This document shows positions 421 through 63,486 of a stretch of 64,000 nucleotides of DNA, piece after piece. The notes under the pieces are model-generated. The model worked only from the letters and a program-made list of their open reading frames with translations. It was not told the DNA's origin and made no database searches. Position numbers and translations under genes: made by a program. This stretch comes from Clostridia bacterium (GTDB taxonomy: Bacteria; Bacillota; Clostridia; Christensenellales; Borkfalkiaceae), in NCBI GenBank assembly GCA_017407325.1, contig JAFQWV010000005.1:62001-126000 (forward strand), read 5' to 3'. Every line of letters starts with the position of its first letter. Within the stretch, counting starts at the first letter, position 1.

Positions 421-770
421 TCCGTCACGCAAAACCTAAGTTTTGCATATCGAGCGCGAACTTTGTTCGCGCATATCGCGTAGCCGTCAGGCTACTACTT
501 TAGTCCCATTTCCGATTTGAACGCAATTTGTCAAAATTGCATATCGAGTGCCGCAGGCACATATCGAGCAAAGCAACGCTTTGCATATCGAGCGCGAGCT
601 TTGTTCGCGCATATCGCGTAGCCGTCAGGCTACTACTTTAGTTTCATCTCCGATTTGAACGCAATTTGTCAAAATTGCATATCGAGTGCCACAGGCACAT
701 ATCGAGCAAAGCAACGCTTTGCATATCGAGCGCGAACTTTGTTCGCGCATATCGCGTAGCCGTTAGGCTA
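421..770. repeat. hairpin array, linker ATATCGA, with a 138-bp tandem duplication
   Basis: This fills the gap between the two lipoproteins. Perfect hairpins (GCAAAAC/GTTTTGC, GCGCGAAC/GTTCGCGC, GTAGCC/GGCTAC, GCAATTT/AAATTGC, GTGCC/GGCAC, GCAAAGC/GCTTTGC; loops 3-4 nt) are joined by a constant 7-nt linker ATATCGA or ATATCGC. A 138-bp unit is tandemly repeated (469-606, 607-744, then a third partial copy from 745 running into the gene at 771). Every copy carries ACTACTTTAGTCCCAT or a close variant, which in the last copy is the end of the lipoprotein coding sequence. No open frame of note. Confidence 0.9.
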
Positions 771-2309
771 CTACTTTAGTCCCATTCCAGAGCCGTAATA
801 AGGCGAAGAAGTTTTTAATTTTGCAAAGCCGTTGTTTGGAAGTGAGCCGTCAGCTTGACGAGGCGCTTTTGCATCTTCTTCAGAAATAGTTACAAAGTCG
901 TCTTTAGTGATTGCCTTATTCATCGTAAGGTCGCCACCGTCGAAGATAAAGTTACAATTCGTTACAGTACCTTTACCTAATTCACCAGCTAAACGATTAG
1001 GCTTTTGAGTACCTTCACCCGTATAGAAAGAAATACAACCTGTAAACGACGTTTGAGAACCGCCGTTTTCAAACATATAATTATACCCGTTATCCCAAGC
1101 AACGCAGTTTTCTAAGATTACGTTGTCAGTATGACTATTTTCGTCAAAACCTTTTACAGAGCCTGTGATATCGCTACCGAAGGCAACGCAGTTTCTTGCG
1201 ATATGGATACCTTTTGAACTACCACCAGTTCCGTTACCACCAAGCTTGATACCGTTTCCGTTACCTGCAGAAGATGGTCTTGAAACACCTTTTTTCGATA
1301 GATAGCTAGCATTTGAGAAATATTCGTCGTTCATAAAGTCTTCTTTATTACCACTTTCCCAAGCCCAGCAGTCGATAAGTTCTACGCCGTAGTCAGTTTC
1401 GTATAAATCCCACGCGTCGTCGCAGTTACGCCAAGCACGACAACCTTTAAAGACGTTACCTTTACCGTTGTGCATTTTGCAAGCAAAGCCGTCAGCATCG
1501 CCGTGGTTATCAAAGTCGTAATTTAAGTATGAGTCACAGTTTTCAATTAAATTATACGCACAGTATTCGCCAGTATTACTGCTACCGTAACCAGATGCGC
1601 TGAAATTGTGTCCAAAGCCGAGTTGAATACCGGTATCCCCGTTGTGATGAAGTACGCAACGGCCGATATAGTTGTAAGAGCCTTCAACCTTAATACCGTT
1701 ATCACCTGCGTGGCAAATTTCTAAGCCTTGAATTTTCCAATAATTACCTTTTAAATAAATACCTACGTACGCTGAATTATTATTTCCGTAAGGTTGATTA
1801 GTAAAGTCTAGAACTACCTTTTTCCAATCTAACGCCTGAATAGTAATAGGCTTATCACTTGTTCCTGACGAAGTTAAGTTAATTCTTGAACTTATATCGT
1901 AAGAACCTTCCATCATAAAGATAGTAGTTCCCGGCTGAGCTTTACTTACAGCAGCTGTCAAAGTTGCAAGTGGGCTACCTTTAGTTCCTGCGTTAGAGTC
2001 GTTACCCGTAGGTGAAACGTAAATATCCCCAACCTTTTCAGCAGGCATATCACCACCTGAAATTATATCTTCTGCAGAAACGCTTGTTTCTACGTTAGAT
2101 TTATCAGTTGTTTGAGAATTTTCTTTATCTTCATTGCTTACTTGAGTTTGAGTATTCGATTTACCACCGTTTTGCGACGTCTCTTTTGAAGAAGTAGTTT
2201 CGCTGTTTGATGAAGTCGAAACGTCATCTGTTTGAATACCGCAACCAGAAATGAAAATCATTGAAAGTGCGGTCAAAACTGCTAAAATTAATAACGTTAA
2301 TTTTTTCAT
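771..2309 (-). CDS. PL9-family pectate-lyase-like beta-helix lipoprotein
   Basis: 512 aa from the ATG at 2309, chosen because an AAGGGG site lies upstream and the protein then begins with a signal peptide; an upstream in-frame start would add 16 non-signal residues. Residues 1-22 plus ISGC lipobox (Cys23), Ser/Thr/Asn-rich linker 25-90, then a right-handed beta-helix from about 95 to the end with the opening YVSPTGNDSNAGT. Polysaccharide lyase family 9 features are visible: Asp273 in DGFACK, Asp297/298/301 in DDAWD and Lys355 in GIKLGG, matching the spacing of the Ca2+ ligands and catalytic Lys of Pel9A from memory of the family. Predicted to cleave de-esterified pectin by beta-elimination at the cell surface. 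A KDG-kinase-like gene at 46505 could act late in the same pathway but is not linked to it. Confidence 0.82.
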   Translation of the reverse strand: MKKLTLLILAVLTALSMIFISGCGIQTDDVSTSSNSETTSSKETSQNGGKSNTQTQVSNEDKENSQTTDKSNVETSVSAEDIISGGDMPAEKVGDIYVSPTGNDSNAGTKGSPLATLTAAVSKAQPGTTIFMMEGSYDISSRINLTSSGTSDKPITIQALDWKKVVLDFTNQPYGNNNSAYVGIYLKGNYWKIQGLEICHAGDNGIKVEGSYNYIGRCVLHHNGDTGIQLGFGHNFSASGYGSSNTGEYCAYNLIENCDSYLNYDFDNHGDADGFACKMHNGKGNVFKGCRAWRNCDDAWDLYETDYGVELIDCWAWESGNKEDFMNDEYFSNASYLSKKGVSRPSSAGNGNGIKLGGNGTGGSSKGIHIARNCVAFGSDITGSVKGFDENSHTDNVILENCVAWDNGYNYMFENGGSQTSFTGCISFYTGEGTQKPNRLAGELGKGTVTNCNFIFDGGDLTMNKAITKDDFVTISEEDAKAPRQADGSLPNNGFAKLKTSSPYYGSGMGLK

Positions 2310-2329
2310 ATTATAAAACCCCTTAAAAA

Positions 2330-2390
2330 TGGCTATGTGCAAAACTTTAATCCACATAGCGCCTATTTTAATGTACCACTATGTGGTACG
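2330..2390 (-). promoter_or_regulatory. paired inverted repeats upstream of the lyase lipoprotein
   Basis: Two inverted repeats lie 20-80 nt upstream of the start: GGCTATGTG/CACATAGC (about 2331-2361) and GTACCAC-3-GTGGTAC (2373-2389). They share the core CCACATAG, so could be operator half-sites or leader hairpins. No convincing -35/-10 was identified in between. Function is inference. Confidence 0.4.
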
Positions 2391-2502
2391 CTTGTCAATA
2401 AAATGAAAAAAATCTCACCGATTTGTCTAATAGATGTTCCGTTTTTTAAATATCCAATTAAATTTTAGAAAAAATTAACACAAGGACAACAAAATTTTGC
2501 AC

Positions 2503-2531
2503 TTGACAACAACACGTTTTAATGATAAAAT
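2503..2531 (+). promoter_or_regulatory. sigma-A-type promoter for the SulP gene
   Basis: TTGACA (2503-2508), 17-nt spacer, TAAAAT (2526-2531), about 40 nt before the ATG at 2571. Confidence 0.75.
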
Positions 2532-2570
2532 ATATTTTACAAAATATATGTCTAATCTGAAGGTAATATT

Positions 2571-4361
2571 ATGCAGAAAAAAACTAGGCGCAAACCTTTT
2601 TCAGGGTACGTAGCGACCTTGAAAAACGAATTTAACGGATATAACGGAAAGAAATTTTTCCAAGACCTAATTGCAGGTATAACTTTAGGCGCGTGCCTGC
2701 TTCCGTTGATAATTGCAGTTGGCGCTCAGAGTGTAAACGTAAGCGTGGTTACGGTTGGAATAGTCGGCGCGATTATAACTTCGGTTTTGTCTAACCTAAT
2801 ACTTACGGTCACAGGCGGGGGGACTTATCAAATTTCTACGCCGTGCTATGCACTTTCGGTCGTCGTTGTAGGAACGACTTATTCAAGCTACGGCTTGCAA
2901 GCAACCTTTTTAGCTTGTTTAATTTCGGGATTACTTCTCTTTATCGCAGGAGTCGCAAGAATTGGCAAGTTCGTTAAATTTATTCCACGCCCAATAATTT
3001 GTGGTTTAACTTTCGGAATAACTTTTACAATCATAGTTTTACAGCTTGGTGGTGCGTTTGGCGTAGCCGTTAACGGGGATAACAACGTTCAAAGACTTAC
3101 TTCATTTTTTACAAATGGAATTAAGGAAATCAACCTGATTAACCTTGCCGTTTTTGGTGGCACGCTATTAATTTTTTCAATTTACCCTAAAAAATGGAAT
3201 AAAGTAATTCCGTCAGCCTTAATTTTAACGATAATTTCTGCCGTGCTTGTTTTTGCAATCAAGCTCGATATCCCGACTGTTGGAAAAATAGAATTTTCTA
3301 TAATAAACAGTCAAAGGTTCAACATTGACGGAACTACTCTAACATTGACGAAAAGCGTACTTTTCCCTGCACTTTCAATATTTGCAATCACTCTTATTCA
3401 AAGCGGTATCGCTGGCGAGCGTTCGTACGACAAAACGGGTAAAGACTTTAACGCAAGCTATCAACTTGCATCACTCGGTCTATCTAATATTATAGTGCCG
3501 TTTTTAGGTGGTATGCCTGTTTCTACAAGTTTTGAAAGCATAGCAGTTTCGCATAAAACGGGTGCTCAAACAAGACTTGCAAATCTGTTTACGGCTATTA
3601 CTTTATTTTTATTATGCTACTTTGGAAAAAACGTTATCGAGTTTATTCCACACGCAACGTTATCTGCAATTTTAATTGTTGCAATGATAAAAATGAACGA
3701 CTATAAGTCGATTATCCACTATTTTAAGAGAAAAGAATACGGCGCGATTGTCATTGCTTTCGTATCTTTTATTTCCGTAATTTTCTTAAGCTTACCACTT
3801 GCTTTCCTAATAGCAATGGTAGTCGCTCTTTTTATCGTATTATACAACACACGCTCGGTGGAAGTTTATGCCGAACTTAAAAAAGACTTAAAAACCGTAG
3901 GCGTAAACGTAACGGGACCTATCTACTTTGCAAGCGTTGACGATTTGATTAATAAGATTAAAGGAATAAATTGCGAATACGACCGTCTTATTATCGACCT
4001 TGGTGGTGTAACGTACGTTGACTCGACGGCACTGCAAAAGATGCTCGACTTTTTAGAAGAACTTAACAAATTTAAAGTTATAAGTTTTTGTGGTACGCGT
4101 ATTAAAGTTTTAAAGGCTATCGCGATCGACGGCTTCTATCAAACGTTTGGTGTAGACAGCTTCTTTAACACCTTCAGCGATGCCTACCGTGAAAAATTCA
4201 AACCTCGCGAAGTAGAAAAGCCAATAGAGTCAACTCCTGCAGAAAGCGAAGAACTTAAAGAAGTTGCAACTACAGAAGAAGAAAAAATTCCTTCTTACGA
4301 AGAACAAACCGTAAAAGCAGACAACGAAGAAATAACTAAGGTTATCCCACCGCAAAACTAA
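2571..4361 (+). CDS. SulP-family anion transporter with STAS domain
   Basis: 596 aa. Residues about 25-425 form the multi-span SLC26A/SulP core, with the family segment GGMPVSTSFESIAVSHKTGA in the second half. Residues about 435-545 are a cytoplasmic STAS domain (LIIDLGGVTYVDSTALQKML), which in this family regulates transport. The last 50 residues are an acidic Glu-rich tail. Expected in the cytoplasmic membrane carrying an anion such as sulfate, bicarbonate or a dicarboxylate; the substrate cannot be read from sequence. Transcribed alone, between its own promoter and a strong terminator, divergent from the lipoproteins. Start supported by GAAGG 7 nt upstream. Confidence 0.92.
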   Translation: MQKKTRRKPFSGYVATLKNEFNGYNGKKFFQDLIAGITLGACLLPLIIAVGAQSVNVSVVTVGIVGAIITSVLSNLILTVTGGGTYQISTPCYALSVVVVGTTYSSYGLQATFLACLISGLLLFIAGVARIGKFVKFIPRPIICGLTFGITFTIIVLQLGGAFGVAVNGDNNVQRLTSFFTNGIKEINLINLAVFGGTLLIFSIYPKKWNKVIPSALILTIISAVLVFAIKLDIPTVGKIEFSIINSQRFNIDGTTLTLTKSVLFPALSIFAITLIQSGIAGERSYDKTGKDFNASYQLASLGLSNIIVPFLGGMPVSTSFESIAVSHKTGAQTRLANLFTAITLFLLCYFGKNVIEFIPHATLSAILIVAMIKMNDYKSIIHYFKRKEYGAIVIAFVSFISVIFLSLPLAFLIAMVVALFIVLYNTRSVEVYAELKKDLKTVGVNVTGPIYFASVDDLINKIKGINCEYDRLIIDLGGVTYVDSTALQKMLDFLEELNKFKVISFCGTRIKVLKAIAIDGFYQTFGVDSFFNTFSDAYREKFKPREVEKPIESTPAESEELKEVATTEEEKIPSYEEQTVKADNEEITKVIPPQN

Positions 4362-4424
4362 TGAAGCTTGCCCTGACGGGCAATGAAGTTATCCTTTGGA
4401 TAATGAAGTTTACTTCGTAAATGA
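4362..4424. repeat. short hairpin array, linker AATGAAGTT
   Basis: Starts directly on the transporter stop codon (the linker follows TAA). Hairpins TTGCCC/GGGCAA (4368-4383), ATCC/GGAT (4391-4401) and TTAC/GTAA are separated by AATGAAGT(T). It runs into the terminator at 4430. Confidence 0.75.
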
Positions 4425-4429
4425 ATAAA

Positions 4430-4465
4430 AATGCGCTCGTCAAAAACGAGCGCATTATTTTTATT
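4430..4465 (+). terminator. Rho-independent terminator of the SulP gene
   Basis: AATGCGCTCGT / ACGAGCGCATT stem (11 bp) with a CAAAA loop, followed by ATTTTTATT. Confidence 0.85.
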
Positions 4466-4474
4466 CTTTCTTCT

Positions 4475-4627
4475 TTATTTATCGCATCTTAGGTATTTTC
4501 TATAAACACAGTCGCAATTTCTGCGCTTTATTTTTTTCTTTTTGCAATTTTCTTCGCATTTATTTTGACTATTTTTATTACAAATAGTGGCAAATAGCAC
4601 GATTATCAATAAATCTTTAGTATTCAT
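4475..4627 (-). CDS. possible small Cys-rich protein
   Basis: A 50-codon frame from ATG 4627 to TAA 4475. It has a short hydrophobic N-terminus (LLIIVLFATIC) and then a very basic, Cys-rich tail with six Cys in all (KCEENCKKKK, RRNCDCVYRK, LRCDK). No ribosome binding site is visible, and the hairpin at 4628-4660 immediately precedes the start, so this may be a chance frame. No family recognised. Confidence 0.25.
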   Translation of the reverse strand: MNTKDLLIIVLFATICNKNSQNKCEENCKKKKIKRRNCDCVYRKYLRCDK

Positions 4628-12147: not shown

Positions 12148-12275
12148 ATGATTTGAAGGCAAGCCTTCATGATTTGAGCGACAGAAGTCGCTCGTGATTT
12201 GAAAGTAGAACTTTCATGATTTGCAAATCAAAATGATTTGCATTATTGTCGTGCAATTTTTCAAAAATTGCCAAA
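12148..12275. repeat. hairpin array, linker ATGATTT, with cap motif
   Basis: Hairpins at 12155-12168 (GAAGGC/GCCTTC), 12176-12193 (GAGCGAC/GTCGCTC), 12201-12215 (GAAAGT/ACTTTC) and 12223-12241 (GCAAATCA/TGATTTGC) are joined by ATGATTT or GTGATTT. It ends with ATTATTGTCGT and a final hairpin (12253-12271). Read on the minus strand this is cap hairpin, ACGACAAT, then hairpins with linker AAATCAT or AAATCAC. Confidence 0.85.
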
Positions 12276-12311
12276 TCCAATATATTTTTACAAATACTTA
12301 TACATATTTAA

Positions 12312-12440
12312 GACGGAGCGCGTAGCGTTCACGACCACAATGAAAAAACTTGTTTTTTCAAATCATGCAATCTGCTTGCGGATTGCAAATCACGCTAACT
12401 TTCAAGTTAGCAAATCACGCAAGCGAAGCTTTGCAAATCA
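12312..12440. repeat. hairpin array, linker AAATCAT, opposite orientation
   Basis: Starts with GAGCGCGTAGCGTTC, then ACGACCACAAT, then hairpins GAAAAAA/TTTTTTC, GCAATC/GATTGC, GCTAACTT/AAGTTAGC and an imperfect GCAAGC/GCTTTGC, joined by AAATCAT or AAATCAC. The final linker overlaps the stop codon of the M6 protease (TGA at 12438-12440). Its first 55 bp are nearly identical to the array at 47612. Together with 12148-12275 it fills most of the 512-bp gap between rpsB and the protease. Confidence 0.85.
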
Positions 12441-14519
12441 TCCTTGTCTTTTGCGTTTGCGCAAAAACGTAGAAACCGTAACCGCAAGCACCCCAACCAC
12501 AAGCGTTGCAACCAAAATCACGATTGCAACTTTAAAAAATACACTGTCGAAAAACTTTTCAAAAAAGTCGTCGTCTTTTGCCGTCTTAACAACACCCACA
12601 AACTTAACAATCTCGTTCTCACCGTCAGAAATTAGCGCGTAAATTACCGTGTTTTCTTTAATATCAAGCTTAGATTTTTTAAACGAAATTGGCGTAGACT
12701 GTGAAATAACCGTGTTATAGCCCTTCATTTTGCCTGTTTTTATCTCGCTTGCGCTAGGTAAAATTTTTGCGCGAATACCGTCATCAGACGAATAAATAAG
12801 CGAGTCTTGATATTCAACGGCAAGCAAAGTTACACTTCCTTTTCTTGCGCCAGAAGTCCAACTTACCTCCGTTTTATTGTCTATTGTTTTAGAAAGTGAA
12901 AAACTGTCACTGTTTGAAATTTGAGTTGAAAGGTCGTCAAACTCTATATCAAAAGTTACGCTTGAAGCGTCTTCAGATAACTTTATATTACTAAGCGCGA
13001 CACCACTATTAACTTTATCACCGTAGAATATTGTCGTATTGTAATAAGTCAAAAACGCGCCTAATATACCTGACGGGTGATAAGTGTGCAAGGTATTTTC
13101 AACAATTTTATTAGTCCCAAAAATATCTTTTACGTACGTATGCCCGTCTATAACGGTTTTTCCGTTTAATATAGCAAGCGAATCGCCCATATCGTTTTTA
13201 ACTTTTTCGCCTGCGCCCTCGCGATAGATATAAATTTCTTCGCTATCTTTTGGCGTGTACATATTGCCGTAAGGAATTTTTGAATAATTTCCACTCTCGT
13301 TTAAAAATCCGTTTTTCTCGTTTACTCGATAAATAATCAAACCGCTTTCAGATAAAAGGCTGTCAAACCCGCCACCTTGGTTAGAGCGCATTTCAAGCAT
13401 AAAGTACTCACCCGTTTTTGCGTAATCGTTTAAAACGAGTTTATACGCTTTAACAGCATCGTCACTCGTCACGGCGTTAAGCGTATACGAGCCACTTTCT
13501 TCAACAGGTAAAATATTTACCCCTTCAGAAAGCCAACCAAGCTTTTGTCTGTTGTATACAAGTGACATTTGCGGTATAGGTAAAGTTGATCCTAAAATAT
13601 CCAATTCACCGACGGACTCGTATCCCGAAATTGTATACGAATAATAGTCGTAAAGTCCTAGCGTATGGTAAAATTCGTGACACAAAACGCCAATGTTCGA
13701 AAGCCCTTCAAAGTTACCCGAAAGCTCGTATCTGTCTAAATATTCAGTCGTCAAAAAGTTGTATTTATTTACCTTAAGTCCGTCTATATACACGTTATTA
13801 GCAAGTTTTTTAATATTTTTATCGTAATAACCTGCTGGCACAAAGTTGTTTGCGTTGACGAGTTCTTCAGTTAAATTGTACGCCATAGTCATATGTGGCC
13901 ACAAAATTCCGTTCCACTCAACTTCGTCTGAATTAGCAATATTTACTATAAAAGTAACCGAATCTATAACCCCGTCGCCGTCACTATCTGCGTTTGTTAA
14001 TTTTGCGTTAATTTTTGAAGCGACTTCGCGTAGCAGTTCTTGCTCTCTAACCGTGCGCTCGATATGCTCAACTGCGTTAGAATAGTTCGGAGAAACTGCG
14101 CTACCGTTATAAAAATATCTATTATCGTAACCGAGTGGATTAATTTCTTCATAAGAGTTTGTCGAAAGATTGTACTCACTAAACCTTGGCATGTAGTATT
14201 CCATTGGTTTTTCAATGGTAACAGCACTCTCTCCACTTATAAAAGAAGTCGTAACCGAAAGAGAATTTAAGCTTGACTTTAAAAAGTAGTTTTTTAAAGA
14301 AATTTCAGAAGTATTATACATAGCGTCAAGTTTTGAAAGATAACTAGCGCTTGGAAAGCTGTCATCTCCTTCAAAGCGTATCAAAACGACGTTGTTAGTC
14401 ATCTCAAGAGTCTCATTTTCGACTACTTCATCTGCATAAGAAATTGGTGGCGTGCTAAAAAATAAAAAAGCAGCCACAATAATCGTTATTAAGTTGAAAA
14501 TTAAAATTTTCACTTTCAT
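12438..14519 (-). CDS. secreted, membrane-anchored M6-type metalloprotease
   Basis: 693 aa from ATG 14519. Residues 1-29 are a signal peptide. The zinc site HEFYHTLGLYD (His281, Glu282, His285, Gly288, Asp291) has the HExxHxxGxxD pattern of the M6 immune-inhibitor-A-like family. A preceding DSDGDGVIDSVTFIV segment resembles a Ca2+-binding loop. The C-terminus has one membrane segment (about 650-680) and a short basic tail RKRKRQG, so it should stay attached outside the cell. The start has no proper ribosome binding site; instead a promoter -10 ends 6 nt before the ATG, suggesting a leaderless mRNA. Substrate unknown. Confidence 0.85.
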   Translation of the reverse strand: MKVKILIFNLITIIVAAFLFFSTPPISYADEVVENETLEMTNNVVLIRFEGDDSFPSASYLSKLDAMYNTSEISLKNYFLKSSLNSLSVTTSFISGESAVTIEKPMEYYMPRFSEYNLSTNSYEEINPLGYDNRYFYNGSAVSPNYSNAVEHIERTVREQELLREVASKINAKLTNADSDGDGVIDSVTFIVNIANSDEVEWNGILWPHMTMAYNLTEELVNANNFVPAGYYDKNIKKLANNVYIDGLKVNKYNFLTTEYLDRYELSGNFEGLSNIGVLCHEFYHTLGLYDYYSYTISGYESVGELDILGSTLPIPQMSLVYNRQKLGWLSEGVNILPVEESGSYTLNAVTSDDAVKAYKLVLNDYAKTGEYFMLEMRSNQGGGFDSLLSESGLIIYRVNEKNGFLNESGNYSKIPYGNMYTPKDSEEIYIYREGAGEKVKNDMGDSLAILNGKTVIDGHTYVKDIFGTNKIVENTLHTYHPSGILGAFLTYYNTTIFYGDKVNSGVALSNIKLSEDASSVTFDIEFDDLSTQISNSDSFSLSKTIDNKTEVSWTSGARKGSVTLLAVEYQDSLIYSSDDGIRAKILPSASEIKTGKMKGYNTVISQSTPISFKKSKLDIKENTVIYALISDGENEIVKFVGVVKTAKDDDFFEKFFDSVFFKVAIVILVATLVVGVLAVTVSTFLRKRKRQG

Positions 14520-21563: not shown

Positions 21564-21612
21564 AGCAGACGTACAAGACCAAAAATCTTGTACGCTGCTT
21601 ATCTTTTTTTTG
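21564..21612 (+). terminator. terminator of the germination operon
   Basis: AGCAG.CGTACAAGA / TCTTGTACG.CTGCT hairpin followed by a run of eight T residues. Confidence 0.85.
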
Positions 21613-21800
21613 TGAAGTTTTTGCTTTTTGCAAAAGTGAAGTTGTGATTTCTCACAGTGAAGTTGCGCGTTAAAAAACTTGCAGTGAAGTTTAGTTTGCC
21701 ATCAATTTGCCGTCAGGCAAAACTTCACTCACGGAGTGAACTTCACTATCGAAGATAACTTCACTATCGTAGATAACTTCACTTGCCCAAAAGGCAAACT
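21611..21800. repeat. hairpin array, linker GTGAAGTT switching to AACTTCAC
   Basis: Left half: hairpins TTTGC/GCAAA, TGTGA/TCACA and TTTGCC-GTCA-GGCAAA joined by GTGAAGTT. Right half: CACTC/GAGTG, TATC/GATA (twice, loops GAA and GTA) and TTGCC/GGCAA joined by AACTTCAC, the reverse complement. The linker therefore flips orientation near 21715. Fills the gap between gerKC and pfp. Confidence 0.85.
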
Positions 21801-21833
21801 TAGTCAGCACGCATTAACCGTGCTATAGCGCGA

Positions 21834-30900: not shown

Positions 30901-31070
30901 AATGTAGCCTTACGGCTATGTATAGTGAAATCCGATTTAAATCGGGTGAAATTGCAACCTGTCGGTTGCAGTGAAATTTTACCTTGCTTTTTGCGCAAGG
31001 TAAAGTGAAATTCAACTTTTTAAAAAAAGTTGAGTTATTGTCGCGCAATTTTGCGTAAAGCAAAATTGCC
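30901..31070. repeat. hairpin array, linker GTGAAAT, with cap motif
   Basis: Hairpins TAGCC/GGCTA (30905-30918), CCGATTT/AAATCGG (30932-30945), TGCAACC/GGTTGCA (30953-30970), TTTACCTTGC/GCAAGGTAAA (30978-31004) and TCAACTTTTT/AAAAAGTTGA (31012-31033), joined by GTGAAAT. It ends with ATTGTCGC and a cap hairpin GCAATTTTGC/GCAAAATTGC (31045-31069). Read on the minus strand the polarity matches the array at 12148. Confidence 0.85.
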
Positions 31071-31116
31071 AGCATAACATATAATTTTTTCTAAGGAATA
31101 CTTAATTATAAAATAT

Positions 31117-31162
31117 GACGGCTAAGCCGTCAATTTATGCAAAATTATATTTTGCAATTCAT
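31117..31162. repeat. short hairpin array, linker AATTTAT
   Basis: GACGGC-TAA-GCCGTC (31117-31131), AATTTAT, GCAAAAT-TAT-ATTTTGC (31139-31155), AATTCAT. With 30901-31070 it occupies most of the lepA-GDPD gap (30736-31218); the rest shows nothing else recognised. Confidence 0.75.
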
Positions 31163-31218
31163 TTATTTGATTTGCCAAAAACTAAAAAATATATTACAAT
31201 AAACTTAAAGGAAAATTT

Positions 31219-32170: not shown

Positions 32171-32310
32171 GAATTGCAAATTTGCATAAATTAACGGCTT
32201 TTGCCGTCATAAATTTAACGCATAAGCGTTCATAAATTGCAACCTTGGTTGCATAATATCTATGCAAAAACTCGTTTTTGCAATTTATGAAAACGAAGTT
32301 TTCAATTTAT
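32171..32310. repeat. hairpin array, linker ATAAATT switching to AATTTAT
   Basis: Hairpins GCAAA/TTTGC (32176-32185), ACGGC/GCCGT, AACGC/GCGTT and GCAACC/GGTTGC (32239-32252) are joined by ATAAATT; after 32263 GCAAAAAC/GTTTTTGC (32264-32281) and GAAAAC/GTTTTC (32289-32303) are joined by AATTTAT, the reverse complement. Confidence 0.85.
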
Positions 32311-32319
32311 CTATAAAAA

Positions 32320-32599
32320 GACTTAGAAACAAGCAAGACAAGGCTCGGTCGGGCAACCCGACTGCTATGTTTTTGTCTTTATTTTCTCTTCGTGTTTCTA
32401 TGATTAAAAAGACTTAGAAACAAGCAGTTCAAGGCTCGCAAAGTTTAACTGGATTGGATTAGCCTTTTCTATGATTAAAAAGACTTAGAAACGAGTTAGG
32501 CTAGGCTCGCTTAGGTTGAGCGGATTGGATAGACCTTGTCGGTCATCCAAGTCGTGAAACCTAAGCAGAAACGACGCATAACGAAGTTTATAAGGCTTT
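32320..32599. repeat. three diverged units of a ~125 bp structured repeat
   Basis: Units start at 32320, 32411 and 32482, each opening AAAAAGACTTAGAAAC. The third is nearly full length and shares an identical 46-nt core (32513-32558) with both copies at 53032-53278. The core folds as TTGGATAGACC / GGTCATCCAA with one bulge. The first two units keep the ends but differ internally. No open frame. Lies directly downstream of galE on the other strand. Confidence 0.8.
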
Positions 32600-33607
32600 T
32601 TAAAAGCCGTTAGGGTTTTTAATCTGCCAGTTTAGAGCGTGAGCGCACATTTCATCAATTCCGTACTCTGCGGTAAAACCAAGTTTTTCTTTTGCTAAAG
32701 ACGCGTCGGCGTAGCAAATAGCAACGTCACCTGGGCGACGGTCGACGATTTTATAAGGAATTTCTTTTCCGAGCGCTTTTGAAAATGCTTTTACTAAATC
32801 TAAAACGCTATAACCGTTACCCGTTCCGAGATTGACGATTAAAAGCCCCCCGTTTTCAATCTTATCAACAGCTAAAACGTGTCCTCGCGCAAGGTCGACT
32901 ACGTGAATATAGTCGCGAACGCCCGTTCCGTCGTGAGTTGGATAATCGTTACCGAAAACACTTAGATACGGGAGCTTTCCGATAGCAACTTTAGTAATAT
33001 AAGGCGCCAGGTTATTAGGAATACCGTTAGGGTCTTCGCCAATAAGCCCAGACGGATGTGCGCCGATAGGATTGAAATAGCGCAAAATCGTAATATCCCA
33101 CTCTTTATCACTGTTATACAAATCTTTTAAAATGTACTCAATGAAAAGCTTCGTGCTACCGTATGGGTTTGTCGTTGAAAGTGGAAAATCTTCGGTGATA
33201 GGAACGGTTTTCGGATCGCCGTAAACGGTTGCCGACGACGAGAAAACTAATTTTTTACAGCCGTATTCGCGCATAACTTCGATAAGCGCGATAACACCAC
33301 CGATATTGTTTTTATAATATTCGATAGGCTTTTGAACAGATTCGCCAACAGCTTTAAAACCTGCGAAATTAATAACGGCAAAAATTTCGTTCTCCTCAAA
33401 AATTTTACGCATGCAAGGCTTGTCGGCAATATCGTATTGATAGAACTTAACCTTTTTGCCCGTAATTTCCTCTACGCGCTTTACCGCGTTAAATTTACTG
33501 TTAGAAAGGTCGTCGCAAATAATAACTCCGTAACCGTTCTGTAAAAGTTCAACGGCAGTATGCGAGCCTATAAAACCTGCGCCACCTGTTACTAAAATGT
33601 TTTTCAT
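32600..33607 (-). CDS. galE: UDP-glucose 4-epimerase
   Basis: 335 aa from ATG 33607, which has TTAGGAG upstream; an upstream start would extend through the terminator. NAD motif TGGAGFIGSH at residue 6, catalytic YGSTK (Tyr/Lys of the SDR family) and FNPIGAHPSG typical of GalE. Interconverts UDP-glucose and UDP-galactose for surface polysaccharide and galactose use. Downstream of glyA but separated from it by a perfect terminator hairpin. Confidence 0.95.
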   Translation of the reverse strand: MKNILVTGGAGFIGSHTAVELLQNGYGVIICDDLSNSKFNAVKRVEEITGKKVKFYQYDIADKPCMRKIFEENEIFAVINFAGFKAVGESVQKPIEYYKNNIGGVIALIEVMREYGCKKLVFSSSATVYGDPKTVPITEDFPLSTTNPYGSTKLFIEYILKDLYNSDKEWDITILRYFNPIGAHPSGLIGEDPNGIPNNLAPYITKVAIGKLPYLSVFGNDYPTHDGTGVRDYIHVVDLARGHVLAVDKIENGGLLIVNLGTGNGYSVLDLVKAFSKALGKEIPYKIVDRRPGDVAICYADASLAKEKLGFTAEYGIDEMCAHALNWQIKNPNGF

Positions 33608-47611: not shown

Positions 47612-47737
47612 AATCACGGAACGCGCTAGCGTTCACGACCACAATGAAAAACTTGTTTTTTCAAATCATGCAACAACGTTGCAAATCATGCTAACTGACA
47701 AGTTAGCAAATCACGCAAGCAATGCTTGCAAATCATC
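47612..47737. repeat. hairpin array with cap, linker AAATCAT
   Basis: Cap GAACGC-GCTA-GCGTTC (47619-47634), ACGACCACAAT, then GAAAAA/TTTTTC (47646-47662), GCAAC/GTTGC (47670-47682), GCTAACT/AGTTAGC (47690-47707) and GCAAGC/GCTTGC (47715-47729), joined by AAATCAT or AAATCAC. It ends 25 nt before the HIT gene start, so it may be part of that gene's 5' region. The gap from 47540 also holds a TAATCGACTTAT at 47559. Confidence 0.87.
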
Positions 47738-47761
47738 AAGTAATTTTAGGAGAAAATAATT

Positions 47762-48187
47762 ATGAAAGATACAAATTGCGCATACTGTATGCGTGGTGAA
47801 CTTTTAGATAAATTTGGCATTTTCGTTTGCGACTTGGAAGTTTCGTCTTTAATTCTTTTTAAAGAACAGTCTAAGCGCGGTAGATGTATCGTAGCGTACA
47901 AAGACCACGTTAGCGAAATCGTAAACATATCCGATAGCGAAAGAGACGCTTTTTTCAAAGACGTTAACCGTGCGGCAAAAGCAATTCACAAAATTTTTGC
48001 GCCGGATAAGCTCAATTACGGTATGTACGGCGACACGGGTTGTCACCTACATATGCACCTTTGCCCTAAATACTCTGGTGGTGACGAATGGGGTGGAATT
48101 TTTCAGATGAATCCACAAAAAACTTATCTTGAAGACGCTGAATACCAAAAAATGATTGACGACCTAAAAAAGGAATTAGGCAAGTAA
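47762..48187 (+). CDS. HIT-family nucleotide hydrolase
   Basis: 141 aa. The histidine triad is HLHMHLCPKY (His-x-His-x-His-phi-phi) at about residue 96; the start NCAYCMRGELLDKFGIFVCDL has a CxxC pair often seen in zinc-binding HIT proteins. Likely hydrolyses AMP-lysine-like or dinucleoside polyphosphate substrates. Start supported by TTTAGGAGA; downstream gene follows after 17 nt. Confidence 0.9.
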   Translation: MKDTNCAYCMRGELLDKFGIFVCDLEVSSLILFKEQSKRGRCIVAYKDHVSEIVNISDSERDAFFKDVNRAAKAIHKIFAPDKLNYGMYGDTGCHLHMHLCPKYSGGDEWGGIFQMNPQKTYLEDAEYQKMIDDLKKELGK

Positions 48188-49572: not shown

Positions 49573-49606
49573 TTTTAGCGTATGAAATCTTTTTAAGGGG
49601 TAAAAA

Positions 49607-50491
49607 ATGGAAGAAGAAATAAAGAACCTTGACGATATGGCTAGCGAAAATCTCGAAGAGCCTATCGAAGAACCTATCGAAGAGCCTATCGAAGAGCCTA
49701 TCGAAGAGCCTGCAGAAGAACCAGCTGAAGAACCTGCGGAAGAGCCTACGGAAGAGCCTGCCGAAGAACCTGCGGAAGAACCTATCGAAGAACCTGCCGA
49801 AGAGCCTACGGAAGAACCTGCAGAAGAACCTACGGAAGAACCTGCCGAAGAGCCTACGGAAGAACCTGCTGAAGAGCCTGCAGAAGAACCTACGGAAGAA
49901 GAAATAGAAGAGCCTGCGGAAGAACCTGCCGAAGAGCCTGCGGAAGAACCTATCGAAGAACCTGCCGAAGACTCTATCGAAGATCCTACGGAAGAAGAAA
50001 TAGAAGAACCTATTGAGGAACAACCTGTAAAACCTGCAAGAGAGTTGCCTGTTTTTGAAGAAGATGAAGAAGACGATAACGACGATTTTGTTCCAGCGCC
50101 AATTCATACAAGACCAAGACGCTTAGATGATGAGGACTTAGACAGAATGTTCGAGCCGGTTGATGAAGACGAACTTCCTAAAAAGAAAACGAAAAAGAAG
50201 AAAAACAAGAAAAAGAGAAAGGCAATGGACCCTACGGTACAACCTGTCAAGGCAGGAAAGCTATTTATAGCACAATTGCTTATTAAAATTCCAATTATCG
50301 GCATCATTTTTGCACTTATCTTTGCAGTTAACAAAAAAGCAAACAAGAATATCAGAACTTATGCAAAGCTTGCATTTTTATGGCACGCAATCGGACTTGC
50401 ATTATTTATATTCTTCTTGGCAACAGACGGATTCGGCTACTTAATCAGTTGGATATTTGATTTGTTTAATATAAAAGGAATTAAATTCTAA
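49607..50491 (+). CDS. Glu-Pro tandem-repeat protein with C-terminal membrane segments
   Basis: 294 aa. Residues about 14-145 consist of roughly 30 tetrapeptides EEPx where x is Ile, Ala or Thr, encoded by 12-nt GAAGAACCT-type repeats. A charged linker with a Lys-rich stretch (KKKTKKKKNKKKRK, about 194-207) follows, then hydrophobic residues 218-285 with two or three membrane segments. No family recognised. The acidic repeat may form an extended rod; number of repeats could vary between strains. It is a single-gene unit with its own consensus promoter. Confidence 0.75.
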   Translation: MEEEIKNLDDMASENLEEPIEEPIEEPIEEPIEEPAEEPAEEPAEEPTEEPAEEPAEEPIEEPAEEPTEEPAEEPTEEPAEEPTEEPAEEPAEEPTEEEIEEPAEEPAEEPAEEPIEEPAEDSIEDPTEEEIEEPIEEQPVKPARELPVFEEDEEDDNDDFVPAPIHTRPRRLDDEDLDRMFEPVDEDELPKKKTKKKKNKKKRKAMDPTVQPVKAGKLFIAQLLIKIPIIGIIFALIFAVNKKANKNIRTYAKLAFLWHAIGLALFIFFLATDGFGYLISWIFDLFNIKGIKF

Positions 50492-50519
50492 TAAATTGCA
50501 ATCGTCGATTGCATAAATT
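50491..50519. repeat. single hairpin unit with ATAAATT linkers
   Basis: ATAAATT, GCAATC-GTC-GATTGC (50498-50512), ATAAATT. It starts on the final base of the stop codon of the preceding gene. Confidence 0.7.
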
Positions 50520-51100: not shown

Positions 51101-53017
51101 ATGAAACTAACTAACGTAGGTAATTTTAACGATATCGCATCTTTTGTAAAAGACAAAACGGAAAGATTTTGCAAAGAAGAAAAGACTTTAAAGTCGCTTT
51201 TTTATTATATGTTTTCCGAAAGGGATAATATTTTTTCTGAAACAAGCGACGGTTTTCGCATAAAAAAGACGACGTACGGCGAATGTTTTGACAGCATTTT
51301 GCAAACTATCCCCGTTTTGAAAGAAAAAATAAAAGCGCCTAAAAACTCAATAGTTGGGTTATATTTACAAAACTCACCCGATTTTATCAAGTTACTATGG
51401 GCAATTTTGGGCGCAGGCTATCGCCCACTTCTTATGAATTTAAGACTTTCTAAAAGCGTTTTAGAAAACATTTTAAAAGATAATAACGTAGCTTGTGTAA
51501 TAACTGATAGCGAAGTTTTTTCTATTGAAACTATAACGATTTCAGAAATTTTAAACTTTCAAAGTGAAAAAACTACCGACGTTTCAGACTTTTCTGACGA
51601 AATAATTTTTATGTCAAGTGGAACGAGCGATAGTGTTAAACTCTGTTTTTATAACGGAGAAAACTTTTTTTATCAAGTTTGCGACAGCTTGACAATTATT
51701 GAAAACTGCCCTGACATAAAAGAGCATTACGAAGGCGAGCTTAAGCAGCTTTGCCTGCTACCTTTTTATCATATTTTCGGATTTGTAGCAGTATATATCT
51801 GGTTCGGATTTTATTCAAGAACTTTCGTGTTTTTGAAAGATTTATCCCCTGAAACGCTTGTAAACACCATAAAAAAGCATAAAGTAACGCACGTTTTTGC
51901 TGTTCCACTTGTTTGGGAAACCGTTTACAAAAAAGCACTTGGCGTTATAAAATCGCGTGGTGAAAAGACTTATTCTAAGTTTAAAAAAGGCCTGAAAATC
52001 TCGTTAAAGGGTGGGTTTTTAGGAAAACTTATCCGTAAAAATGCGCTTAAAGAAGTGCGCGACAACATTTTTGGCGAAAGCATAAAATTCTTAATCAGCG
52101 GTGGTAGCAGTATCAAAAAAGAAGTGCTTGAATTTTTTAACGGCATTGGCTATCATATGGCAAACGGATACGGTATGACCGAAGTTGGGATAACGTCGGT
52201 TGAACTTTCGTCAAAATCTAACGTTTTATGCTCTGGAACTATCGGAAAGCCGTTTACTTATTCTAAATATGAAATTGATAAAAACGGCGAACTGTTGATA
52301 AAAAGTAAAACTCGCGCGTTTAAAATCGTAGAAAATGGCGTTGAAAAAACAACTGATTTCGACGAATTTTTCAAAACTCGTGACTTAGCACGACTTGACG
52401 GTAATAGATACTTTATTGACGGCAGATTAGACGATTTGATTATTGCAAGCGACGGCGAAAATATCAATCCACAAATAATTGAAACTAATCTAAATATCCC
52501 CGACGCAGACGGTTTTTCAGTATTTTGCGACAAAGACAGTCAACCGATACTTTTAATTAGTTCAAGAAGTTGCAACACTAAAGAAAAATACGACTTTCTT
52601 TACAAAAAAGCAACCGAAAGTTTAAAAGTGCTACACCTTGAAAAAGTCGTTAAAAAAATAGCGATTACGAAAGATTCGTTAATGTTAGGAAACGAATTTA
52701 AAGTCAGTCGCAAAAAACTTGCAAAGCGCTATGATAACGGTGAAATAACCGTTATCGGTGAAAATCCTAAGGCTTTTGAAAATATTTCAGACGAGCTTGC
52801 CACCGAAATAAAAGATATTTTCTCAAGGGTTTTGAAAAAGCCTATAAGCGAAATTGATATAAACGCCGACTTTTTCATCGACCTTGGTGGTACGAGCTTA
52901 GATTATTTTGAGCTTTTAAACGAAATAAAATTGAAATATTCAACTGATATTCCTGAAAACAACGGAAAAACATTGTCAACCGTAAAAGAATTTTACGAAT
53001 TTATAAAAAATATTTAA
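51101..53017 (+). CDS. acyl-AMP ligase with fused acyl carrier domain
   Basis: 638 aa. Adenylation domain motifs: FMSSGTSDSVK (P-loop, residues 170-180), YGMTEVGITS, and DGNRYFIDGRLDDLII (hinge). Residues about 565-638 form a carrier domain with FIDLGGTSLDYFELL, the Ser being the phosphopantetheine site. Predicted to activate a fatty acid with ATP and load it on its own carrier. First gene of a co-oriented run extending to 60330. Start has AAAGGTTAATAG upstream. The substrate cannot be read from sequence. Confidence 0.88.
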   Translation: MKLTNVGNFNDIASFVKDKTERFCKEEKTLKSLFYYMFSERDNIFSETSDGFRIKKTTYGECFDSILQTIPVLKEKIKAPKNSIVGLYLQNSPDFIKLLWAILGAGYRPLLMNLRLSKSVLENILKDNNVACVITDSEVFSIETITISEILNFQSEKTTDVSDFSDEIIFMSSGTSDSVKLCFYNGENFFYQVCDSLTIIENCPDIKEHYEGELKQLCLLPFYHIFGFVAVYIWFGFYSRTFVFLKDLSPETLVNTIKKHKVTHVFAVPLVWETVYKKALGVIKSRGEKTYSKFKKGLKISLKGGFLGKLIRKNALKEVRDNIFGESIKFLISGGSSIKKEVLEFFNGIGYHMANGYGMTEVGITSVELSSKSNVLCSGTIGKPFTYSKYEIDKNGELLIKSKTRAFKIVENGVEKTTDFDEFFKTRDLARLDGNRYFIDGRLDDLIIASDGENINPQIIETNLNIPDADGFSVFCDKDSQPILLISSRSCNTKEKYDFLYKKATESLKVLHLEKVVKKIAITKDSLMLGNEFKVSRKKLAKRYDNGEITVIGENPKAFENISDELATEIKDIFSRVLKKPISEIDINADFFIDLGGTSLDYFELLNEIKLKYSTDIPENNGKTLSTVKEFYEFIKNI

Positions 53018-53031
53018 TTTAAAAATTAAAT

Positions 53032-53278
53032 GGCTTAGATACAAGCAAGAGAAGGCTCGCTGAGGTTGAGCGGATTGGATAGACCTTGTCGGTCATCCAA
53101 GTCGTGAAGCCTAAGCAGAAACGCACTATTGCGCCGTTTATAAGACTTTTAAAAAAGGCTTAGATACAAGCAAGAGAAGGCTCGCTGAGGTTGAGCGGAT
53201 TGGATAGACCTTGTCGGTCATCCAAGTCGTGAAGCCTAAGCAGAAACGCACTATTGCGCCGTATATAAGACTTTTAGG
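53032..53278 (+). repeat. two tandem 125-bp structured repeats
   Basis: Copies at 53032-53156 and 53157-53278 are nearly identical, with a 46-nt core (53063-53108, 53188-53233) shared with 32513-32558. Each copy can fold: outer GCTTAG / CTAAGC, inner TTGGATAGACC / GGTCATCCAA. They fill the gap between two genes of the lipid cluster, and the second copy ends at the ribosome binding site of the transporter gene, so the RNA would be part of its leader. Strand chosen by the mRNA. Confidence 0.85.
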
Positions 53279-59266: not shown

Positions 59267-59268
59267 TT

Positions 59269-60330: not shown

Positions 60331-60340
60331 AGGAGAAAAT

Positions 60341-60811: not shown

Positions 60812-60860
60812 AAATATAATAAACGGCGTATAAGTCGATTAAACTAAAAGGAGAAATATT

Positions 60861-61487
60861 ATGCATTGTAGAAATTGTGGCAAAGAACTTGATACTGAAG
60901 CAGAATTCTGTAACAAATGTCTTACTAAGTTCGACGACTTCGGTGACGATGGCGAAAAAATTGTTGAAAACCTGGAAAACGAAAAAACTTTCAAGCAAAC
61001 TGCGACAGATTCATCTAACCAAAGCACACCTATAACTTACCAACAAAAAAATTCAACATCTTCTCAACCACAAGGCAGTATTATGGCAGGTTTTGGTTTA
61101 GCACTAACAGGCTCTATTTTAAGTGTTGTCGGCTTTACCTTAATTATGTTTGGATTTTCTATTGCTTCTATGTTAAATGAAGCCGTATTCGTCCCAGCTG
61201 AAACAATTAGTTATTTTGAATCAATTTTGAAAGATATGATTATTATAGCAGAAGAGAGTTTTGAAAGCTTAAAAACTACTGCTTGGTTTATGTGGATTTC
61301 TGGTTTAGGTGTATCTATTCCTTCACTTATATTCAGTATAAAATCTATTATACGTTTTGCAGTAGCAAAACGCAAAGATTTAAAAAGACCAATCCCTGCG
61401 TTTGCTATTGGAATTGAAACTATTGCGATGTTAGTTATTGTTTTATATTTTGTATTGGTATCGTTAGAGATGCTACTAAGTATTTAA
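60861..61487 (+). CDS. zinc-ribbon membrane protein, paralogue 2
   Basis: 208 aa. CRNCGKELDTEAEFCNKC ribbon, an acidic DDFGDDGE segment, a Gln/Ser linker and three membrane segments with PIPAFAIGIETIAML. First ~110 nt including the ribosome binding site are nearly identical to the gene at 61939. One ATAAGTCGATTA 12-mer is in the gap before it (60830). Confidence 0.72.
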   Translation: MHCRNCGKELDTEAEFCNKCLTKFDDFGDDGEKIVENLENEKTFKQTATDSSNQSTPITYQQKNSTSSQPQGSIMAGFGLALTGSILSVVGFTLIMFGFSIASMLNEAVFVPAETISYFESILKDMIIIAEESFESLKTTAWFMWISGLGVSIPSLIFSIKSIIRFAVAKRKDLKRPIPAFAIGIETIAMLVIVLYFVLVSLEMLLSI

Positions 61488-61557
61488 TCGACAACTTGTA
61501 ATAATTTTGAAATATTTATAAGCAAAAATATAATTAAACTAAAAGGAGATTTAAATT

Positions 61558-61908
61558 ATGTCAAAATCAAACGTTATGCTCGGCTTTGGTAAAGCCCTTG
61601 CATCTGTAATCGTAGGTTTCGTGGGGTATATTTTCACCTTCATTTCATTGGGTGTTACTGTTGGTATAAGTGAAAACGCAGGAAGTGGTTTCGAAGGAAC
61701 TTGTATAGCGCTCGTCTTATTTGCTCTCGCTCTAGTAGTAGTTTCTCTTGTATTTGGTATAATGTCAATTGGAACTTTTAGACAAAATAAGTCAAGCAAA
61801 AACGGAAAACCTATTCCAGCACTAGTTATGGGTATTGTTTCTGTGATAGTATCTTCATTAGATGCTTTCATTTTACTTATCAACTTCTTAATTATCTTTT
61901 CAATATAA
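61558..61908 (+). CDS. related membrane protein without zinc ribbon
   Basis: 116 aa. Begins MSKSNVMLGFGKALAS, aligning with the post-ribbon part of its neighbours (MAGFGPALTGTIL), and ends with PIPALVMGIVSVIVSS. So it is either a truncated paralogue lacking the N-terminal ribbon or a distinct short member. Three membrane segments. AAAGGAGAT upstream. Confidence 0.68.
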   Translation: MSKSNVMLGFGKALASVIVGFVGYIFTFISLGVTVGISENAGSGFEGTCIALVLFALALVVVSLVFGIMSIGTFRQNKSSKNGKPIPALVMGIVSVIVSSLDAFILLINFLIIFSI

Positions 61909-61938
61909 CAAATTAAAAACTATCAAAGGAGAAATATT

Positions 61939-62559
61939 ATGTATTGTAGAAATTGTGGCAAAAAACTTGATACTGAAGCAGAATTCTGTAACGAATGTCT
62001 TGCTAAGTTCGACGACTTCGGTGACGACGGCGAAGAAGTTGTTGAAAGTAAAAATGAAGTTGAACAAACTATAACTGACTCAACTTATTCTTACAGCTCA
62101 CAGGTAGCTTATCAACCGGAAAAAAGAACTCAAGCACAGCCTGAAGGCAGTATTATGGCAGGCTTCGGACCAGCGCTAACGGGAACTATTTTAAGCATTT
62201 TTGGAATAGTCTTTATAATGGTTACTTTTATCCTCTCAACTTCTTTAGGTGTTTGCGAAATCGTAACTGATGCGTTTATTCAAAACGCCCCTGCAAACAG
62301 CGACGTTTTATATTTAACTATTGACGAATTTAACGTACTTAAAGGCACAACCTGGATTATGTTTTTAATTTCTTTAGGCTTACTTATTCCGTCACTCATA
62401 CTTGGAATAAAATCAATAAAAACTTTCGTTAAAGCAAAACGCGAAGGTTTAAGAAAAAAGCCTATCCCAGCACTTGCTATGGGAATAGAAACGACGGCAG
62501 TTACCGGCTTTGGAATTCTTTACGCTTTTCTAACACTTATTATGCTATTACTTATCTAA
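61939..62559 (+). CDS. zinc-ribbon membrane protein, paralogue 3
   Basis: 206 aa. CRNCGKKLDTEAEFCNEC ribbon, acidic segment, Gln/Ser/Tyr linker and three membrane segments with PIPALAMGIETTAVT. Very close to the gene at 60861 in the first 37 residues but quite different afterwards. Confidence 0.72.
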   Translation: MYCRNCGKKLDTEAEFCNECLAKFDDFGDDGEEVVESKNEVEQTITDSTYSYSSQVAYQPEKRTQAQPEGSIMAGFGPALTGTILSIFGIVFIMVTFILSTSLGVCEIVTDAFIQNAPANSDVLYLTIDEFNVLKGTTWIMFLISLGLLIPSLILGIKSIKTFVKAKREGLRKKPIPALAMGIETTAVTGFGILYAFLTLIMLLLI

Positions 62560-62572
62560 AACACAAAAAATA

Positions 62573-62612
62573 GCGGTAATCGACCTATAGGTCGATTACC
62601 GCCTTTTATTTT
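62573..62612. terminator. bidirectional terminator between the ribbon genes and rsmE
   Basis: 15 + 15 bp perfect inverted repeat GCGGTAATCGACCTA / TAGGTCGATTACCGC followed by CTTTTATTTTT. It includes a near copy of the 12-mer. Confidence 0.88.
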
Positions 62613-63325
62613 TATAATTCACTTAAGCCACTCATAACGAGTGCTGTTAAGATTATCGAGCAGGTTTCTGCCCTTAAAATTCTTTTGCCAAGGTACACGG
62701 TTTTAAACTGTAAAGATTTTGCAAGTTCAAACTCTTTTTGAGAAAAGCCACCTTCGCTTCCTACGACTATCGCAGTCGAGCCGTCGATATTTTTTAAATC
62801 AACTTCTGTTTCGTCAGCAAACTCGCACGCAAAAAACTTGTTTTTATAATTGTTCGCAAAACTTAGCGCGCTTTCAAGGTCTTTTGCATATTCAACGCTA
62901 GGCGCGATTGCGCGTTTGCATTGCTTAGACGCTTCAACCGCAACCTTATTTAGCCTTGAAAGTTTGTTGTCGTTTATGTATGCCGACGAAAACTCGCTTG
63001 AAAAAACGACTATTTTCTTAACGCCAAGCTCGGTTGCTTTTTGCACTACAAGTTCCGTTTTATCCCCTTTAAGGTATCCGCAAATTAAAATTACGTCTTC
63101 TTGAGTTTCCGTTTCAGAAAATTTTTTATCGTAAACGCTTGCGATAAAATCTTTTTTATTAATCTTATCAACCTTTGCAAAATACTCGTACCCCGAATTA
63201 TCGCAAAGAATTATATCGTCCCCTTCTTTTATTCTTAAAACGTTTATAGCGTGACGAAATTCTTCGTCTGAAACAGTAACGAAATCTTCAATTTTATCCA
63301 CAAAAAATCTTCTTAAATCTGCCAT
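62612..63325 (-). CDS. rsmE: 16S rRNA m3U1498 methyltransferase
   Basis: 237 aa SPOUT enzyme: RRFFVDKIEDFV at the N-terminus, HAINVLRIKEGDDI in the PUA-like part, and the knot motif AIVVGSEGGFSQKEFEL, LGKRILRAETCSI. Methylates N3 of U1498 in the decoding region. The ATG lies 6 nt after a TATAAT, without a ribosome binding site, suggesting a leaderless message. Confidence 0.94.
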   Translation of the reverse strand: MADLRRFFVDKIEDFVTVSDEEFRHAINVLRIKEGDDIILCDNSGYEYFAKVDKINKKDFIASVYDKKFSETETQEDVILICGYLKGDKTELVVQKATELGVKKIVVFSSEFSSAYINDNKLSRLNKVAVEASKQCKRAIAPSVEYAKDLESALSFANNYKNKFFACEFADETEVDLKNIDGSTAIVVGSEGGFSQKEFELAKSLQFKTVYLGKRILRAETCSIILTALVMSGLSEL

Positions 63326-63331
63326 ACTTTG

Positions 63332-63360
63332 ATTATATCATTTTGAAAAACTAAAATCAA
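63332..63360 (-). promoter_or_regulatory. promoter of rsmE, implying leaderless mRNA
   Basis: Minus-strand TTGATT (63355-63360), 17-nt spacer, TATAAT (63332-63337), then six bases before the ATG at 63325. Confidence 0.7.
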
Positions 63361-63370
63361 CTGAATATGC

Positions 63371-63486
63371 AAATGATTTGAAGGCAAAGCCTTCATGATT
63401 TTGCAAGCCTATTGCTTTGCTCGATGTGCAACCTAAAGGTTGCTCGATATGCGCGAACAAAGTTCGCGCTCGATATGCAAAGTTTA
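63371..63486. repeat. hairpin array mixing ATGATTT and TCGATAT linkers
   Basis: GAAGGC/GCCTTC (63380-63394), ATGATTT, imperfect GCAAGC/GCTTTGC (63403-63420), TCGATGT, GCAACC/GGTTGC (63428-63443), TCGATAT, GCGCGAAC/GTTCGCGC (63451-63469), TCGATAT. The 63451 hairpin and its linker are the exact reverse complement of those in the array at 421-770. It abuts the stop of the next gene. Confidence 0.87.

Follow-up and report, generated by a model that had tools for sequence, protein, structure and literature searches.

Dispersed, often two-armed arrays of tagged mini-hairpins in a Clostridia genome and its relatives: possible substrates of a single-stranded DNA enzyme

REP sequences are described as palindromes that are read strand-specifically, as single-stranded DNA (ssDNA), by TnpA-REP, with a GTAG tag (PMC8266576; also PMC3116915 and PMC3733652), and CGTC-tagged REPs as tagged palindromes apparently without a dedicated transposase (PMC3733652), in a paper whose main text contains neither 'Firmicutes' nor 'clostrid'. 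These are the closest comparison for a family of mini-hairpin arrays in 64,000 nt of DNA from a Clostridia bacterium (Christensenellales; Borkfalkiaceae), namely positions 62,001 to 126,000 of contig JAFQWV010000005.1, assembly GCA_017407325.1 (this whole stretch is called the window). An array is a string of small hairpins joined by short constant linkers. The original prediction, made from the letters of the window, had placed such strings at eleven sites, and direct reading confirmed all eleven coordinates; overlooked at that stage were the two-armed inverted design, the tag common to the arrays (TCAY or TCGA) and the asymmetry between strands. The reading preferred here, tentatively and at somewhat short of an even chance, is that the arrays are dispersed, often two-armed DNA repeats whose tagged mini-hairpins act as folded ssDNA and are copied by a putative strand-specific enzyme.

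As the cited passages present them, REP, REPIN and BIME sequences resemble the arrays in being short intergenic palindromes behind a tag conserved on one strand, in inverted pairs and often with short loops. The arrays likewise are palindromes of 20–50 nt, mostly intergenic and in many copies, and their tag strand shows an asymmetry of loops and stems that, at the level of sequence, is consistent with recognition as ssDNA. They differ in the tag, which is TCAY or TCGA in several types (82/93 chains) and not GTAG, in the variation of hairpin sequence within one arm, in having several hairpins per arm, and in the enzyme: the domain of RAYT (Y1_Tnp) has no match in the genome holding the window (1,587,846 bases in 28 contigs, 95% complete), and Y1 occurs in 6 of the 26 genomes with type F arrays. 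With the GTAG tag and, in this genome, the enzyme both lacking, the arrays are taken, by analogy, to work like REP and not to be REP. The innermost hairpin of an arm recalls the CGTC-tagged REPs, being flanked by GACGG and CCGTC (the regular expression used required GACG, and the likeness was seen at this hairpin only), whereas the other hairpins are tagged TCAY or TCGA and the arms are multi-unit. Integron attC sites, as abstract openings describe them, are also folded ssDNA hairpins with one strand preferred, but the arrays have no gene cassettes and their units measure ~17–37 nt. MITEs share the inverted terminal arms, the many copies and the usual lack of an internal gene; in the arrays, however, the arms are strings of variable hairpins, and no target duplication was seen by eye in type A flanks. 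Like a CRISPR, an array alternates a constant short repeat with variable units; unlike one, it has a repeat of 7–9 nt (against 24–48 nt) and palindromic variable units, and it is short and dispersed. Nor are the hairpins intrinsic terminators, since they lead into a linker and not a T-run. The initial impression that the arrays match no repeat class stands against Rfam (no match in the window), against a search of six array loci that gave three tRNAs only, and against a literature search, in which no account of such arrays appeared in titles and abstract openings.

The arrays, of several types lettered A to F, share an anatomy. In a full element two arms lie head to head around an AT-rich core, the linkers of one arm being the reverse complement of those of the other, while half copies consist of one arm. 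Type A and B arms have in common the order GACGG-hairpin-CNCGACC-hairpin-linker-hairpin-linker-hairpin-linker-hairpin-linker, from which some copies lack some units. The eleven blocks are accordingly not eleven separate objects: six belong to two-armed elements (12148 and 12312 are arms of one 295-nt element, 30901 and 31117 of another, while blocks 21611 and 32171 contain a pair of arms apiece), and the remaining five comprise lone arms or units. The features of the window are as follows.

421–790, plus strand: type B arms (linker ATATCGA), three chains (429–495, 523–633 and 661–771) in a 138-nt direct repeat, from sequence reading and finder
4362–4425, minus strand: short array, linker TGAAG (CTTCA on the minus strand), straight after the stop codon of an open reading frame (ORF) and before a terminator-like hairpin
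12148–12442, no strand assigned: complete two-armed type A element, from finder and predicted ssDNA fold
12148–12241, minus strand: outer part of its left arm, RTGATTT linkers, the tag strand being the minus strand
12242–12312, no strand assigned: its innermost left hairpin with GTCG linker, and the AT-rich core
12313–12441, plus strand: its right arm, AAATCAY linkers
21611–21806, no strand assigned: two-armed type D element, a GTGAAGTT arm and then a AACTTCAC arm, adjoining a terminator-like hairpin with T-run, from direct reading
30901–31170, no strand assigned: chimeric element, with a type C arm (GTGAAAT, 30901–31033), a core and a short type E arm (AATTTAT/AATTCAT, ~31117–31161)
32171–32310, no strand assigned: type E element with both arms (ATAAATT ... 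AATTTAT), preceded by a terminator-like hairpin
47612–47740, plus strand: type A half element with a single arm, shortly before the ORF start at 47762
50491–50519, minus strand: one lone type E unit, where ORF 49607–50491 has its stop codon
63371–63482, minus strand: one type A unit, then a type B arm (TCGATAT)

Further chimeric elements, which unite type B with A (locus L044) and type C with B (L048), show that arms have been exchanged; since their arms do not pair with each other, arm-to-arm pairing cannot be essential. The ssDNA fold predicted for 12148–12442 pairs the linkers of both arms and lets the hairpins protrude on either side, so that four-way junctions follow one another in a chain (–60.2 kcal/mol, z –7.0, with 0 of 200 shuffles as good). 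For the right arm alone the predicted fold is less clean, some hairpins being replaced by longer pairing (z –4.1).

Abundance was assessed with a linker-blind finder, in its strict form requiring at least three perfect hairpins, a stem of at least 5, and linkers of 5–10 nt differing by at most 1. It found 8 chains in the window (three in block 421 and one each in 4362, 12148, 12312, 30901 and 47612) and none in 20 dinucleotide shuffles, shuffled in 1-kb blocks. Block 32171 was gained by a looser run, while blocks 21611, 31117, 50491 and 63371, having too few or imperfect units, fail both runs and carry linkers of the same kinds. Fifteen further stretches of the same genome (298 kb, partly picked round linker-pattern matches) gave 33 chains against 1 in five shuffles of each, and DNA not picked by linker match (the window and 11 stretches, 284 kb) gave 17 strict chains. 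Extrapolation from the latter puts the genome at about 100 chains; the hundreds at first envisaged are not demonstrated. Exact patterns matched 36 times for type A, 71 times for type B and twice for type F across the genome, and a reversed control pattern not at all.

Hairpin length varies (~10–28 nt) and linkers are constant, so the tags become evenly spaced only once the strand folds. TCAY or TCGA stands on one strand in the first linker of the 82 chains mentioned above, whereas letter shuffles average 10.5 and never exceed 21; the 93 distinct chains include loci fetched by linker pattern, and in an unselected set the tag, or its variant TCGC, was read manually in 14 of 17 chains. Pairing is nearly perfect, with 19 internal mismatches in 2022 pairs from 330 units of all types (10 G·T and 3 A·C), a count that drops units with fewer than 4 pairs and allows at most one mismatch per unit, the true rate being higher. 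In type A, for which 8 A1 arms and 12 A2 arms were compared and another arm was omitted, 352 of 356 stem cells pair and double changes occur at many positions, such as position 5 of A2 hairpin 5, with 5 G–C, 4 A–T, 1 C–G, 1 T–A and 1 G·T. Type B draws its hairpins from a palette in varying order (14 arms, gathered by a regular expression that fixed their linkers). The earlier view that hairpin sequences vary freely thus fits type B; it does not fit type A, where the hairpin at a given position is retained and its changes are compensatory.

The loops differ between the strands. On the tag strand, a set of 237 distinct hairpins gave GNA in 45 of 107 loops of 3 nt, against TNC in 1, and GNNA in 35 of 89 loops of 4 nt, against TNNC in none; TTTA, a favoured DNA loop, occurred 12 times and TAAA twice. 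Within GNNA, the GNYA form (24) exceeded the RNA class GNRA (11; one-sided p 0.02). The contrast is much weaker in terminators: 347 of them, from this genome and related DNA, had 4 GNA and 0 TNC in 39 loops, and 8 GNNA and 7 TNNC in 138. DNA not picked by linker shows the same direction as the full set (GNA 5 and TNC 0 of 19; GNNA 12 and TNNC 0 of 26). The closing pair is C–G in 201 of 294 hairpins and in 42 of 58 GNA loops, and the 5′ stem halves contain 32% A and 11% T. With ViennaRNA, the share of 4-nt array loops in the most stable tenth is 47% for DNA on the tag strand and 5.6% on the other strand, against 6.7% and 0% for RNA; for terminator loops the values are 21% and 16% (DNA) and 5.8% and 7.2% (RNA). 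GNA and GNNA loops combined with G–C pairs are described as making extraordinarily stable DNA mini-hairpins (PMC4686876). The two arms carry opposite tag strands, so that a strand bias of the locus cannot cause the asymmetry. Such loops, on the tag strand, mostly not GNRA and far rarer in terminators, point to one strand of each arm folding as DNA.

Units come and go between related species; the comparisons rest on one genome per species, in mostly fragmented assemblies. At one tRNA locus the F arms of four sister species vary in entire hairpin units, and two of the species lack the second arm; at a second locus one of three species has an extra, differently tagged array lying between the T-run of the terminator and the F end, which is a candidate filled site. 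Two arrays of genome G099 are absent between the same gene pair in G165 and G190, though not as a clean empty site. The gain and loss of hairpin units that the original prediction proposed to look for is seen here as whole-unit differences between sister species, not strains. One end of type F often sits straight after a terminator: 30 of 70 F arms start directly behind a T-run and ATCC by regular expression (29 by eye, L324 minus being an opposite end), whereas of 1400 random windows drawn from these loci 19 did so, and most of the remaining arms are opposite ends by eye. This count replaced, for type F, a crude test that misses long-loop terminators, by which a terminator-like site lies beside 15 of 39 elements of the window's genome (random noncoding points, 37/195) and 12 of 46 elements elsewhere (random points, 29/215). 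A crude ORF mask places 8 of the 39 and 23 of the 46 inside ORFs. By eye, the L030 copy lies between a terminator and the next promoter, and the L044 copy also lies upstream of a promoter-like site. As separate observations on type F, at L328 2370–2930 (G117) a whole element, together with its terminator and a tRNA-like flank, occurs as a tandem duplication at ~97% identity; L101 (G278) has, at ~1560–1680, an array between terminator and F end that carries yet another tag, TGTACATCATG on one strand; and in the elements of L098, L099, L114, L328, L352 and others a stretch of the core is complementary to part of the outer hairpin, both covarying between elements by eye, which is a possible second conformation.

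Type F is present in 26 of 297 genomes from the order, spread over 11 of 126 genera and 7 families (counted manually), and in none of 397 other genomes of the phylum, the window's own excluded (Fisher p 1.4e-10 versus the order). Type B patterns match in 10 of the 297; palindromes are evident by eye in the window's genome, G099, G256, G165, G267 and G064, and no clear palindrome in the type B-positive G151, G095, G145 and G152. Types C and D are present in G048 and G256 too. Types recur across families, so the tags are common to families while the hairpins seen differ. The window's genus (G001–G006) has one weak chain in the sampled stretches, the type A pattern is absent from 60 relatives, the strict finder gave no chain in five related loci (L031–L035, from Pumilibacter muris and four Clostridia metagenome-assembled genomes, 48–56% on one 1179-aa protein), and ~679 kb of further relatives held 4 strict chains, three of them from G019. 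Carriage by phages was rejected, since among the matches listed in fetched viral loci 2 of 198 had a stem of at least 5.

One strand of each arm reads as a series of small, mostly perfect hairpins with a constant TCAY/TCGA-type tag in front of each; on the preferred reading this strand would act as folded ssDNA, and the hairpins would space the tag and present it. A strand-specific recombinase or transposase may then read tag and hairpin, as TnpA-REP reads GTAG and hairpin, and copy the presumably mobile elements in trans into new intergenic sites; units could be lost through slippage between tag repeats. Hairpin-copying relics and protein-bound DNA sites, both raised at the outset, fit the oriented single-strand signature and the turnover of units, with neither enzyme nor protein found. 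In a bolder version, possible but doubtful, a short tag plus any DNA-stable hairpin would be the transferable unit, with a putative ssDNA enzyme adding, removing or swapping hairpins between fixed tags and elements being seeded beside terminators.

Several observations weigh against this reading. The co-occurring enzyme gene that the original prediction suggested seeking was not met with among Y1_Tnp, RVT_1 (reverse transcriptase) and IS110 domains, which have no match in the window's genome, other transposases not being searched. Y1 is not enriched in genomes with type F (6/26 versus 103/271, p 0.14), and 9 Y1 loci from 7 array-bearing genomes lack F and B arrays (some flanks are short), one unrelated CTCGT chain being present among them. 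On these grounds Y1 was rejected as driver, as were reverse transcriptase and IS110. No target-site duplication is visible in the type A flanks and no precise empty site was found; paralogous copies are not independent, and inheritance accounts for some of the spread, given that certain loci are orthologous. Chimeric arms do not pair, and type A and B arms run tag-strand outward from the core while type F arms run inward. C–G closure is absent in 16 of the 58 GNA loops, and GNA is weaker in the window's genome (18/60) than in relatives (40/76), counting all hairpins. The 3-nt loop energies are uninformative, since the Vienna DNA set gives one value to all C–G-closed triloops shown, and stable loops could serve RNA too.

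Other repeats and genes were noted on the way. The genome has three tyrosine recombinase matches and a single DUF559 match, between two type A arms (L040 8400–9400, G000:C11); because DUF559 lies inside its own CCTTCCCCTC...GAGGGGAAGG repeat it is read as a nested insertion and was rejected as an autonomous gene. A second dispersed repeat of ~125 nt with a ACTTAGAAACAAG...AAGGCTCG-like core (window 32304–32601 and 53016–53276) recurs in the genome and adjoins hairpin arrays in places, including L039, L041 and L046. A short repeat, TAATCGACTTATA / TATAAGTCGATTA, possibly a regulator site, occurs in both orientations at ~3702, 9610, 16935, 23102, 27759, 31818, 47558 and 60829, some copies between ORFs and others within them. 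A 12-bp tandem repeat at 49595–50074 overlaps ORF 49607–50491.

Three other explanations were weighed. The arrays might serve the host as selected, immobile DNA structure between transcription units, as cruciforms or as protein-bound sites for nucleoid, gyrase or insulator functions. This is unlikely, although the predicted chain of four-way junctions, the terminator-like sites beside elements and the orthologous presence in sister species would suit it: cruciforms use both strands equally, whereas the loops are biased to one strand per arm; varying hairpin lengths would give varying duplex spacing of the tags; chimeric and half copies exist; and two species lack arrays at an orthologous gene pair.

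A purely mutational origin, in which fold-back synthesis on ssDNA perfects quasi-palindromes and linker slippage moves units, with neither function nor enzyme, would account for the 19 mismatches in 2022 pairs and for the reused palette of type B, and self-priming could favour stable DNA loops on one strand. It is judged quite improbable, because it leaves unexplained the constant tags common to families, the dispersal to unrelated loci and the two-armed design, and because such arrays would be expected to collapse. There is little likelihood, finally, that the arrays act in RNA, as untranslated 3′ or 5′ hairpins stabilizing or regulating transcripts. Arrays 4362 and 50491 do follow stop codons, 47612 precedes a start, and the tag strand has 10 G·T against 3 A·C (one-sided p 0.046); but GNYA exceeds GNRA among distinct loops, TTCG occurs once among 114 loops of 4 nt, G·T makes up only 10 of the 2022 pairs, the tag strands of the two arms are opposite and, by eye, a promoter-like site lies downstream of the copies in L030 and L044. 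The role as RNA stabilizers at 3′ ends, an early suggestion, is disfavoured by the DNA-type loops on one strand, the scarcity of G·T and the position of L030 between terminator and promoter.

If the preferred reading holds, in which the mini-hairpins act as folded ssDNA, the arrays would form a repeat system widely distributed in an order of bacteria related to the Clostridia, with loops seemingly chosen for DNA folding, and would leave in the genome an unusual sign of single-stranded DNA acting in chromosomes. The reading predicts a hairpin-reading enzyme, for the discovery of which the tagged arrays would be the substrates. Should the doubtful bolder version, tag plus any hairpin, also be true, structure would be inherited while sequence is free, which would amount to a new kind of mobile DNA.

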